DNA of 64,000 bases from Bacteroidetes bacterium SCGC AAA795-G10 (lineage in GTDB: Bacteria > Bacteroidota > Bacteroidia > Flavobacteriales > Flavobacteriaceae): contig QFDA01000001.1 in NCBI GenBank assembly GCA_003130815.1, positions 634,131 through 698,130 on the forward strand, written 5' to 3'. The notes below the pieces were generated by a model. The model saw nothing but the letters and a program-made list of their open reading frames with translations, was not told where the DNA came from and searched no databases. Shown here one piece after another: positions 1,018-59,760 of this stretch (position 1 is its first letter; every line of letters starts with the position of its first letter). Position numbers and translations under genes: made by a program.

Positions 1018-1809
1018 TTAATTACTTTGTTTTTGCATCATCAAGGTAAGTTCAGCACTTCCATATGGCCTTTTTCTAGAATTACTCATTAACTCAGATA
1101 ATTTCTTTGTTATAAAATCATTTTCTACAAAATAAGGGGGCCATTCAGCACCTTCGACAGGAATATTAAATGTAAAATGAGTTACTTCCTTATTTGAAGT
1201 TTCTCCTCTATTAATAATTTTTGTTAAGGCCCATCCTCTATGTAAGCCATTTTTGACTTGTTCAAGCACATAAGGTTTCCAAATATTCGATTCCATTTGT
1301 TCGTATTCTTCACTGATCTGAACCATAGGATCCATTAATATTTTTTCTCCAATTTTTAGGTCGCCACCCGTAAAAGGAGTTCCGTCAATAGCTTGAATAT
1401 GATAGGTTCTTACTTCTTTTTTGATTTTATTTTTACTCGGTGTTATAAGATTTATAATCGAACTTTTTGACATTCCTTTCATCCCTCTTCTAATAATTGA
1501 TGCGGCTGAAGAAAAAGAAAAATTAGGATTTCCTTTAAGATATTTATCCATTTCTTCCTTTGTTTCAAATTGATTGAAAACTACGTAATCTGCTGCGTTC
1601 TCATTATCATTTGTTTTAGGAGTTCTTTTCCAAACAGCCCAATTCATTTTCTGGCCTTTGTCAATTTGGTTTTGTCTAAAAATAGACCAAGCCAATTCTA
1701 ACTTTTCGTAATCTTTTTCCATACCCTCATTAATAACAATAAAATCAGCTACAGCATATTGAGCTGTAATTGATAATGGTAGTAGAAATAAAAATATTAG
1801 TTTTTTCAT
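1018..1809 (-). CDS. Secreted two-domain protein, dimeric alpha/beta-barrel-like (family copy 1)
   Basis: A 263-residue protein with a Sec signal peptide (MKKLIFLFLLPLSITAQ). The mature protein has two similar halves. Residues about 18-100 and 138-235 each run: a strand, E-x-x-Y-E-x-x-E helix, a Trp-containing strand (NWAVWK; GWALTK), an N/E-rich turn, then a strand ending F-N (DYVVFNQF; THFTFNIP). This repeated pattern fits a tandem dimeric alpha/beta barrel (ABM/NIPSNAP/EthD type), an assignment from pattern only. Five more copies lie at 5136, 8242, 14115, 21405 and 26471. No active-site motif is recognisable. It is preceded by the shared leader CTATAAATCAATTTCAATG. Confidence 0.65.
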   Translation of the reverse strand: MKKLIFLFLLPLSITAQYAVADFIVINEGMEKDYEKLELAWSIFRQNQIDKGQKMNWAVWKRTPKTNDNENAADYVVFNQFETKEEMDKYLKGNPNFSFSSAASIIRRGMKGMSKSSIINLITPSKNKIKKEVRTYHIQAIDGTPFTGGDLKIGEKILMDPMVQISEEYEQMESNIWKPYVLEQVKNGLHRGWALTKIINRGETSNKEVTHFTFNIPVEGAEWPPYFVENDFITKKLSELMSNSRKRPYGSAELTLMMQKQSN

Positions 1810-57419: not shown

Positions 57420-58613
57420 ATGGTAAAAAATTTTATTATTGTTTTTTCTATTTCTTTTATAATTAGTTGTAGTACCTCTCCTACGGTTTTAGATAAAGTA
57501 CTAAACAAAAATATTAATGAATTACAAAAAGTGTTGAAAAATAAAGAAAAACACGAGCTACAAATTCTTTTAACTCAAATTAAAAGAGATGATTCAGGTA
57601 AAGCTGTATTTAAAGAAAATACATTTCAACTTGATGAAGGCCGTTATTTTTATCCTGCAAGTACAGCTAAACTTCCAATAGCAATACTTTCACTTCAGAA
57701 ATTAAATGAATTAAGATCAAATGGGCTTCAAATTTCTGGAGACACCCCTTTTTTTATAACTGACAAAAATGGGGAAATTTTGGTTAAAACGGATTCAACT
57801 CATTTTAAAGGAATTCTAACTATAAATCATCTAATAAAAAAGATTTTTTTAGTTAGCGACGATAATGCATATAATTATCTTTTCGATTTCTTAGGCACTG
57901 ACTATATCAATAAAGAATTAACTCAAAGAGGTTTAAGTAATACTAGGCTTTACCATAAATTTCTTTTTGGAGCTGATAATACTAACACTTGGGGATTTAC
58001 TTTTTTGAATGAAAATCAAAAAATTATTTACCATCAGCCCTCCATAAGTGCTTTGGTTGATTTGAAAATAAATAATTTGGAGGGTAATTTGAAGGGAATT
58101 GGACATATAAAGTCCAAAAACATTGTCTTCGAACCAATGAATTTTGAAAGAAAAAATAGAATTTCGATACGTAACCTCGAGGGTATTCTTAAAAGAATAA
58201 TTTTCCCTGAAGCTTTTACAGAAAAAGAACTTTTCAATTTGACTAAAGCGGATTATAAATTTTTAAGACATTGGATGAGCAGAACTACATTAGAAAGTAA
58301 TGATCCTAATTTTAATGATGGAAAACATTGGGATAGTTATTGTAAGTTTTTTATTTATGGAGATAAAAAAGGCGCAATGATACCTGAGATTAGAATATTT
58401 AATAAAGTTGGGCAAGCTTACGGTACGGTAACAGATGTTGCCTACATAAAAGATGAAAAAAATAAAATTGAATTCTTCCTCACGGCAACAATTTTAGTTA
58501 ATGAGAATATGATTTATAACGACGATATTTATGAATATGACGAAATTGGAATCCCATTTTTAGCTGCTTTAGGTAGGGGTGTACATGAAGAAATTATGAA
58601 ATCTAGTTTTTGA
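57420..58613 (+). CDS. Serine beta-lactamase-like lipoprotein
   Basis: 397 residues with a lipobox (FIISC, Cys17). Class A-like features: S-T-A-K at 81-84 (SxxK), S-D-D-N at 146-149 (SDN position with D for N) followed by AYNYLF, and K-V-G in FNKVGQAYGT instead of KTG. There are about 100 residues more than in class A enzymes. These changes suggest a penicillin-interactive or carboxypeptidase/esterase function rather than resistance. A Glu166 equivalent cannot be placed. It is convergent with the 2OG oxygenase, overlapping by 11 bases. Confidence 0.7.
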   Translation: MVKNFIIVFSISFIISCSTSPTVLDKVLNKNINELQKVLKNKEKHELQILLTQIKRDDSGKAVFKENTFQLDEGRYFYPASTAKLPIAILSLQKLNELRSNGLQISGDTPFFITDKNGEILVKTDSTHFKGILTINHLIKKIFLVSDDNAYNYLFDFLGTDYINKELTQRGLSNTRLYHKFLFGADNTNTWGFTFLNENQKIIYHQPSISALVDLKINNLEGNLKGIGHIKSKNIVFEPMNFERKNRISIRNLEGILKRIIFPEAFTEKELFNLTKADYKFLRHWMSRTTLESNDPNFNDGKHWDSYCKFFIYGDKKGAMIPEIRIFNKVGQAYGTVTDVAYIKDEKNKIEFFLTATILVNENMIYNDDIYEYDEIGIPFLAALGRGVHEEIMKSSF

Positions 58614-59553
58614 TTAAACCTAGTTCCTTCAATCTTTGGTTTAAAAATTCGCCTGCTAGAATGTCATCATATTTTTTTAAATTTTTCTTATTGTAAGTTT
58701 GTGGTAAGCAGTTCAACGGCATTTCTGGTATTGGATGCATAAAAAAGGGGACTGAATATCGAGAACTTCCCCAGAATTTCTTTGGAGGATTTACAACTCG
58801 ATGCAGAGTAGAAGGGAAAAAATTATTTGTTAATCTTGAGAGCATGTCACCAATATTAATTATCAATTCGTCTTTTTCTGCAACAGCCTCTATCCACTGA
58901 TTTTTTCGACTTAAAACTTGCAAACCTCCACCTTGAGCACCCATTAATAACGTAATCAAGTTGATATCACTGTGGGCTGCAGCCCGTTCAGCTTCTTTTG
59001 GGTGTTCTTTGATTGGTGGATAATGTATTGCTCTTAAGATAGAATTTCCACCATCAACGAATTTGTCAAAATAAAATTCATCTAGATTTAAAAAAATAGC
59101 TAAAGCTCGAAGTACTAATTTTGCAGTTCTCTCTAATTCCAAAAAGGCTAAATTGCCAACGTGATTAAAATTTTTTAATTCTTTAACTTTTATATTTTCT
59201 TCGTATTTTTTTTTGAGATATTTCTTTGTATTTAAATCCTGACCGAAATGCCAAAATTCCTTTAAATCACCTACTGACCTACCAGCTGCACTCTCTTTTC
59301 CAAATCCAGTATAACCTCTTTGACTTCCTCCATCTTTAATTTCGTATGATGACTTGATTTCATCAGATAGATTAAAAAAATCACGAATTTCCTTATAAAG
59401 ATTTTCTTGAAGTGAGCTGCTTAGAGAATGACCCTTTAAGACAAGAAATCCAATTTCTTGAAATGCTATGCCAATTTTTTTGACAAATAATTTTTTCGTT
59501 TTTGAATTTTTAGAAGTGAAATCTTCTAAGTTTGCTTTAGGAATGTTGTTCAT
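58603..59553 (-). CDS. 2-oxoglutarate/Fe(II)-dependent oxygenase, isopenicillin N synthase-like
   Basis: 316 residues. N-terminal DIOX_N-like region (AFQEIGFLVLKGHSLSSSLQ) and a C-terminal double-stranded beta-helix with the iron ligands H-x-D at 194-196 (HSD) and His251 (STLHRVVNP), plus the 2-oxoglutarate-binding Arg265 in SSRYSVPFF. This is the IPNS/2OG oxygenase superfamily (naringenin 3-dioxygenase-like group). Substrate unknown. The start is 6 bases after the U-run of an intrinsic terminator, with a leader peptide ORF further upstream, so it is likely regulated by attenuation. Confidence 0.9.
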   Translation of the reverse strand: MNNIPKANLEDFTSKNSKTKKLFVKKIGIAFQEIGFLVLKGHSLSSSLQENLYKEIRDFFNLSDEIKSSYEIKDGGSQRGYTGFGKESAAGRSVGDLKEFWHFGQDLNTKKYLKKKYEENIKVKELKNFNHVGNLAFLELERTAKLVLRALAIFLNLDEFYFDKFVDGGNSILRAIHYPPIKEHPKEAERAAAHSDINLITLLMGAQGGGLQVLSRKNQWIEAVAEKDELIINIGDMLSRLTNNFFPSTLHRVVNPPKKFWGSSRYSVPFFMHPIPEMPLNCLPQTYNKKNLKKYDDILAGEFLNQRLKELGLIKN

Positions 59554-59559
59554 TTCAAT

Positions 59560-59588
59560 AAAAAAAGCGGATCCATCGATCCGCTTTT
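59560..59588 (-). terminator. Attenuator-like intrinsic terminator
   Basis: Minus strand: GCGGATC-GATG-GATCCGC stem (extended by AAAA/TTTT) followed by TTTTTTT. It lies between the leader peptide and the oxygenase start, so transcription would stop here unless the hairpin is prevented. Confidence 0.9.
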
Positions 59589-59605
59589 GTAATAGATAAG
59601 GAAAG

Positions 59606-59668
59606 CTACAGCAGACTGCAATTGGGTACCTGCTGTCTCGAATTCCTTAAATGATTATAATAAGACAT
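59606..59668 (-). CDS. Leader peptide with strong Shine-Dalgarno
   Basis: A 20-codon ORF on the minus strand, MSYYNHLRNS-RQQVPNCSLL, stop TAG. It is preceded by AAGGAGGT with 5 bases between GGAGG and the ATG, a nearly ideal Shine-Dalgarno, whereas the other genes in this window show none. Its last codons overlap a hairpin, ACAGCAG pairing with CTGCTGT. The peptide has no membrane or signal features, so its role is likely as a translated sensor. Confidence 0.7.
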   Translation of the reverse strand: MSYYNHLRNSRQQVPNCSLL

Positions 59669-59728
59669 AGACACCTCCTTTCAAATTTGGTTAGACATCA
59701 CTGTTGTCACAGCATAAACTACTCACAT

Positions 59729-59760
59729 CAAATATAACTACCACTTTAATGGTTTTCAAA
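59729..59760 (-). promoter_or_regulatory. Promoter of the leader-peptide/oxygenase unit
   Basis: Minus strand: TTTG (59760-59757), a 20-base spacer, then TATATTTG (59736-59729), a close match to the Bacteroidota TTG / TAnnTTTG consensus. Transcription would start about 55 bases before the leader peptide. Confidence 0.7.

Follow-up and report, generated by a model that had tools for sequence, protein, structure and literature searches.

A candidate small structured RNA gene with a short open reading frame behind an rpsU-type Shine-Dalgarno sequence in marine flavobacteria

Our analysis points to a small RNA gene ahead of a 2OG-Fe(II) oxygenase gene in the genome of Bacteroidetes bacterium SCGC AAA795-G10, within a stretch of 64,000 nucleotides (contig QFDA01000001.1, positions 634,131 to 698,130) that is referred to here as the window. 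A promoter box, a first hairpin, an extended Shine-Dalgarno (SD) sequence, a short open reading frame (ORF), a doubly complementary segment behind the stop codon and an intrinsic terminator are conserved together, as read from the sequences, beside differing neighbouring genes (Table 1). We see about an even chance that the element is an independent gene for a structured RNA of approximately 165 nt, equipped with a promoter and a terminator of its own. Its ORF of about 18-21 codons lies behind an extended SD of the rpsU class, and the RNA would serve as a small mRNA or small RNA read by bS21-poor ribosomes with a free anti-SD. That the RNA probably stands alone is suggested by the varied genes downstream of it, by an oxygenase that is unlinked or missing in many genomes, and by the lack of a conserved antiterminator. 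In this phylum the anti-SD is normally concealed within the ribosome, from which we infer that translation of the ORF falls mainly to ribosomes with a free anti-SD.

Table 1. Features of the element and its downstream neighbours in the window.
Feature	Position	Strand	Basis
-10-like promoter box TATATTTG (TAnnTTTG)	59729..59736	-	read from sequence
Hairpin 1 (P1), GCUGU-GACA-ACAGU	59700..59713	-	sequence and genus comparison
Extended SD GAAAGGAGGTG (as RNA GAAAGGAGGUG), containing AAGGAGGT	59672..59682	-	sequence and genus copies
20-codon ORF, peptide MSYYNHLRNSRQQVPNCSLL	59606..59668	-	sequence and conservation
Helix P2, 5' strand, UAAGGAA within the ORF	59643..59649	-	minimum-energy fold and compensated versions
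Hairpin P3, 3' half of the ORF, ACAGCAG/CUGCUGU	59608..59636	-	sequence and fold
Post-stop segment UUUCCUUAUCUA, P2 3' strand and alternative SD partner	59593..59604	-	alignments, pairing tests
Intrinsic terminator, 11-bp stem, loop GAUG, U-run	59560..59588	-	sequence; stem 59563-59588
2OG-Fe(II) oxygenase (DIOX_N and 2OG-FeII_Oxy)	58603..59553	-	domain matches; downstream neighbour, linkage variable
Beta-lactamase2-domain protein, convergent with the oxygenase	57420-58613	+	domain match

The anatomy of the element can be read directly from the window. All parts that the original prediction had named, namely the promoter box, the small hairpin, the strong SD, the 20-codon ORF and the hairpin at the end of the ORF, were located, and the terminator was indeed found to end in a run of seven T (U in the RNA) six bases ahead of the oxygenase ATG. 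Two of its measures needed correction, with four instead of five bases between AAGGAGGT and the ATG of the ORF and a terminator stem of 11 instead of 7 bp. On inspection the promoter pattern reads TTTG-N20-TATATTTG, which would place the transcription start near 59724. The arms of P3 pair 59630-59636 with 59608-59614, and 17 nt lie between the stop codon and the terminator stem. Upstream of the element the same strand encodes a sodium/hydrogen exchanger and a riboflavin-synthase-like protein with lumazine-binding domains. The window RNA folds at -44 kcal/mol compared with a shuffle mean of -33.1 kcal/mol (z -2.97), and one of 200 shuffles folded equally well. There is one exact occurrence of GAAAGGAGGT in the 64-kb window, while the six matches with one mismatch allowed are not above chance (mean 3.66). 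The pattern AAGGAGGT-N2-10-ATG has seven sites in the genome of the window (its own genome in the following) against 18 for the reversed pattern, so that such sites are not enriched there as such; the ORFs at these seven sites are the window ORF (20 codons), rpsU (64 codons) and five of 3, 3, 7, 18 and 21 codons.

Conservation in close relatives, which the original prediction had proposed as a check, was evident. Of 60 genomes searched by DNA similarity, its own among them, 37 belong to the genus and 33 of these gave a match; the 23 genomes of other genera gave none. All 33 genus copies, when read, contained GAAAGGAGG and an ATG followed by an ORF of 20 or 21 codons. A covariance model (R1) was built from 31 of these copies, leaving out L027 as well as L010, which is the same as L009. 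With this model 34 of 38 genomes of the genus score as carriers, among them all seven that are at least 90% complete; these matches are largely so by construction, since R1 was made from those very copies, and the DNA search provides the unbiased count. Beyond the genus, about 85,000 genomes were scanned with a pattern of hairpin 1 and SD that did not contain the ORF. This yielded 77 stretches, mostly from metagenome-assembled genomes (MAGs), with titles naming Flavobacteriaceae, Flavobacteriales, Flavobacteriia, Crocinitomicaceae, Bacteroidetes or a member genus; the same pattern gave no stretch in viral contigs. Eight of the 77 loci were set aside at seed choice (containing N, cut off, or failing the terminator regex), removal of near-duplicates left 50 seeds of which one (L059) was empty, and the resulting alignment A2 comprised 41 sequences, without L059 and eight similar genus copies.

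Model searches outlined a scattered distribution. Among 395 sampled Flavobacteriales genomes R1 returned its own genome and two weak matches. A second model (R2) found its own genome strongly and gave five weak matches at 3.3e-4 to 9.9e-4, none of them convincing, in the other 394; three of the seven weak matches of both models (L048, L157, L159) resemble plain terminators. In 397 genomes of the family R2 had 24 matches, 17 of them strong (E<=3.8e-12) and distributed over 9 of 237 genera, and the seven weak ones, two of which were viewed (L210, L212), were treated as chance. These large searches scored seven candidates per genome under strict filters, so weak copies can be lost. Fourteen strong matches come from other genera, and GGAGG is kept in 13; eight of the 14 are absent from the 77 pattern loci, and GGAGG is present in seven of these eight. 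The exception, L207 (about 1490-1680, minus strand; genus g153), is a decayed copy with an SD that now reads GGAAG and with eroded hairpin 1 and terminator loop; a congener of that genome carries an intact copy (L199). Most RNA copies derive from draft genomes. Two MAGs (UBA11891 and ERR315863_bin.92) have two differing copies each (L099 and L102; L110 and L123), either as two loci per cell or as a consequence of mixed bins. Six loci (L067, L081, L093, L097, L113, L126) from MAGs labelled Crocinitomicaceae or Flavobacteriales show a very different peptide type (MSIEKNSKEL..LLVP) and a different gene neighbourhood, which might reflect either ancient inheritance or transfer between families.

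The ORF is kept in nearly all copies. Four pattern loci were not readable (two cut off, two containing N), and in 71 of the remaining 73 the SD is followed by an ATG that opens a frame of 18-21 codons. In L065 the start codon is replaced by AGG and in L054 the stop is lost, both in otherwise intact copies, owing to either sequencing error or early decay. Within the ORF, the gaps of the 41-copy alignment are three columns wide, whereas the stretch from stop to terminator varies by any size. A census of 80 distinct sequences, conditional on a regex that demanded SD, length and terminator loop, counted 57 ORFs of 20, 21 of 21 and two of 19 codons, ending in TAA (53), TAG (21) or TGA (6). For dN/dS we obtained 0.54 with the 57 ORFs that have 20 codons; the HLRN type gave 0.41 (30 sequences) and the LGQQIP type 0.52 (15 sequences). 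These values are soft because RNA pairing constrains synonymous sites too. That they lie only moderately below 1 counts against the reading of a stand-alone ORF-bearing RNA.

Such constancy raises the question of whether the element is a small protein gene, with the peptide of 20 amino acids as its product and an RNA structure that merely tunes synthesis. Frame, start, stop and length are conserved, dN/dS is 0.41 in the HLRN type, and the related cores HLRNSRQQVP and NLRKLGQQIP recur across clades. However, the C-terminal part of the peptide is variable, and L205 and L206, both from one genus, encode an unrelated peptide (MSNTKYSSWNGLDDAFLVI in L205) with almost no shared sequence although hairpin, SD, ORF length and terminator loop are kept. 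Conservation of codons is moreover due in part to pairing with the post-stop segment, and five peptides searched against Pfam and NCBIfam gave no match. On balance we consider a small protein gene somewhat unlikely. Type I toxin mRNAs encode short hydrophobic membrane peptides; this class was rejected by inspection, the window peptide being polar with Arg, Gln and Asn.

The genes behind the RNA vary. At 41 of the 77 loci the next gene is a same-strand oxygenase and at 15 a glycosyltransferase, with starts assigned mechanically and with names read from the sequences where a Pfam match was lacking; four loci have a TonB-dependent-receptor-like gene at a greater distance, and 11 have a convergent gene (esterase-like in six, EtfA-like in four, other in one); in 10 of these 11 the opposing gene ends at the terminator or at most 16 nt from it. 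No assignment was made for six loci: sequence or ORF stops too early in L095, L110 and L116, and the terminator regex did not match L065, L084 and L125. The latter three have a convergent gene behind the RNA, related to the Beta-lactamase2-domain protein of the window. Upstream, the neighbour is the exchanger in 57 loci, the riboflavin-synthase-like gene in nine and a divergent exchanger-like gene in six, with nothing readable in five. We also followed the oxygenase in 16 chosen RNA-bearing genomes, namely its own, G024 and 14 with strong family matches, G670 having a decayed copy only and the genus members G023 and G033 being left out. It was adjacent to the RNA in seven, on another contig in three (G584, G590, G744), and no relative of it was found in six (G024, G475, G488, G648, G670, G679; completeness 58 to 91%).

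The promoter box TAnnTTTG occurs at most 50 nt from hairpin 1 in 64 of the 75 loci with enough upstream sequence and mostly ends 17-18 nt before TGTGAC. In Flavobacterium psychrophilum, TAnnTTTG at -12 to -5 is given as the sigma-A consensus in the part of the study drawn on here (PMC9723704). This placement suggests that the transcript probably starts just ahead of hairpin 1 and ends at the terminator.

The original prediction had interpreted the element as a leader-peptide attenuator in which the ribosome on the 20 codons decides between termination and read-through into the oxygenase gene. Its components did prove to be conserved as a set, i.e. the ORF, the exceptional SD, hairpin 1 and the terminator, and the scan with hairpin 1 and SD recovered the 77 loci with their largely intact ORFs. 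An oxygenase directly behind the terminator in somewhat more than half of these loci agrees with attenuation, as does the absence of TAnnTTTG between ORF and oxygenase in 39 of the 41, so that some read-through may supply the oxygenase there. Against a primary role of this kind stand the 30 loci with a convergent gene (11) or another same-strand gene (19) behind the RNA and the nine of 16 genomes in which the oxygenase is unlinked or not found. Pairing of upstream sequence to the 5' arm of the terminator was no better than in shuffles (median p about 0.7; p<=0.05 in one of 31 representatives, L072; the 32nd, L059, is cut off and has no value), which speaks against a conserved antiterminator, and the 17 nt between stop and stem likewise do not fit. 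A specific aminoacyl-tRNA had also been proposed as a signal, but in MSYYNHLRNSRQQVPNCSLL no more than two identical codons follow each other, and the peptides of relatives vary. We therefore regard an attenuator of the oxygenase as unlikely. Another signal that had been proposed, the state of the ribosome, appears plausible, since rpsU of the genus has the same extended SD.

Pairing in the RNA was evaluated helix by helix. Covariation, which had been suggested as a test for two hairpins, was seen for hairpin 1 in 31 genus copies as compensated changes in L019, L020 and L036, with one broken pair in L038; in the set of 41 sequences four of the five pairs are invariant by design of the scan pattern. 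P3 was recognised in many genus copies on reading the alignment and was changed or absent in other genera. In the terminator both sides have changed in seven of the 10 stem pairs counted over 41 sequences, whose loop is GAUG throughout. Strong terminators with GAUG loops were also encountered at unrelated flavobacterial loci (L157, L159), hence the loop may not be special to this RNA, which suggests a common terminator design in the order.

A strong conserved terminator on a stand-alone transcript is found in many trans-acting small RNAs, and would also suit a non-coding regulatory RNA that pairs with mRNAs and has SD and ORF incidentally. An extended SD positioned 5-7 nt ahead of an ATG and a nearly constant ORF length (71 of 73 readable loci) would not be expected of such an RNA, and we hold it to be very unlikely.

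The post-stop segment (UUCCUUAUCUA) pairs with the ORF interior, forming P2, in the minimum-energy fold of the window RNA. Over 44 representatives the mean pairing energy was -8.49 kcal/mol with the own interior, -6.80 with swapped and -5.79 with shuffled interiors, and none of 2000 permutations was as good. The same permutation test on the nearly constant SD, included as a control, also gave 0 of 2000 at a difference of 0.25 kcal/mol, so that the count alone can reflect relatedness; the support for P2 comes for this reason from explicit compensations, as in L084, L102, L070, L087 and L109, which have long matching P2 helices in different wording. In L035, L081, L126 and L205 the best pairing of the segment uses other bases. 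The segment can pair with the SD as well, at a mean of -8.3 kcal/mol against -5.1 for shuffles in 36 representatives, reaching p<=0.01 in only five of them, and in two (L067, L077) of five minimum-energy folds viewed the SD was paired with the segment instead of P2 being formed. Sequestration of the SD as the sole role of the segment was dropped once the pairing with the ORF interior had appeared.

The element and rpsU of its genus share one extended SD. While GAAAGGAGG is present in 33 of 33 leader copies, it is found at rpsU in 24 of the 30 genus rpsU loci that were read (34 matches found), and bS21 genes are present in 33 of 38 genus genomes. At two rpsU loci the SD is eroded (L240 with AAAAGTAGGT in G015; L243 with GAAAAGAGGT in G017), and the small RNA of both genomes keeps GAAAGGAGGTG. 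When GAAAGGAGG-N3-7-ATG was searched for in general, 221 of 395 genomes had matches, but the reversed control was similar in look and the result carries no weight here. The pattern GGATCACCTCCTTTCTA, containing what we take to be the 16S tail, matched none of 38 genus assemblies and the 16S 3' end of the own genome is masked, for which reason rpsU was used as a proxy; for these genomes a 16S 3' end that is complementary to UAGAAAGGAGGUG is predicted. Work on Flavobacterium johnsoniae provides the context, as far as its passages used here go: ribosomes of Bacteroidia fail to recognise SD sequences, the 16S tail sits in a pocket that bS21, bS18 and bS6 form, and bS21-free ribosomes favour mRNAs with an extended SD and initiate faster on rpsU mRNA (PMC9976891). 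The same source concludes from a survey of 200 Flavobacteriales, again in those passages, that rpsU alone is under SD-dependent control (PMC9976891). A survey based on genes would probably miss an unannotated ORF of 20 codons. With the same extended SD at rpsU of the genus, a link of the element to the state of the ribosome is plausible.

For the stand-alone RNA we propose the following mechanism. The ORF would be translated mainly by ribosomes that lack bS21 or have an opened platform. As long as the post-stop segment is held by the ORF interior in P2, the SD would be open; a ribosome entering codons 7-12 would melt P2 and free the segment, which might then capture the SD behind the ribosome and limit further rounds of initiation. 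The output, whether peptide, captured 30S subunit or RNA stability, would act away from the neighbouring gene, and an oxygenase gene immediately past the terminator may in addition be fed by leakage through it. The post-stop segments (UUUCCUUAUCUA in the window; CUCCUUUCUA in L067 and L113) resemble the 16S rRNA tail as we presume it to be. This allows the speculation, which we judge to be quite unlikely, that the element is a sensor and decoy whose SD captures 30S subunits with a free anti-SD and whose tail-like segment (CUCCUUUCUA) may bind free bS21 or the bS21-bS18-bS6 pocket, one RNA thereby titrating both and setting how much SD-dependent translation is allowed.

The RNA does not appear to belong to a known family. 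At gathering thresholds Rfam recognised only a tRNA in the window, and permissive thresholds gave nothing convincing either: membership of the element in an Rfam family was rejected at best scores of 20.8 and 19.3 bits against thresholds of 47 and 75. No description of this RNA was found in titles and abstract openings of the open-licence PMC literature, so this small RNA gene common to many ocean flavobacteria is apparently undescribed. It would be a second conserved carrier of the rpsU-type SD signal, and the marine flavobacteria in which this structured RNA occurs include names assigned to NS5, an abundant group. With the element one can test directly whether specialised, bS21-poor ribosomes exert control beyond bS21 itself; it also offers a new RNA family for which a clean alignment is supplied.

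Several known systems share features with the element. The independent transcripts Rfp1-89 of F. psychrophilum are likewise short and flavobacterial, the transcript of our element being deduced from sequence; they differ, by their description in the part of that study considered here, in being typically without coding potential (PMC9723704). Dual-function RNAs such as SgrS/SgrT and RNAIII are also stand-alone with a short ORF and a terminator, but the SD class of the element is unusual, and the interior of its ORF is itself in a helix with the post-stop segment. With the leader-peptide attenuators of trp, ilv and pheA it has in common the short ORF, hairpins, an intrinsic terminator and, in some lineages, an adjacent gene, whereas a run of control codons, a conserved antiterminator and a constant target gene are lacking. 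The closest parallel in terms of the SD is the autoregulation of rpsU by bS21-lacking ribosomes, described for F. johnsoniae in the passages cited (PMC9976891), where an extended SD complementary to the 16S tail occurs in a phylum that hides its anti-SD; the element has the GAAAGGAGG stretch of rpsU in its genus and is presumed to have the like complementarity. Unlike rpsU, the element is not a ribosomal protein gene, and it combines an ORF of 19-21 codons with a structured, terminator-ended RNA and a segment able to mask the SD.
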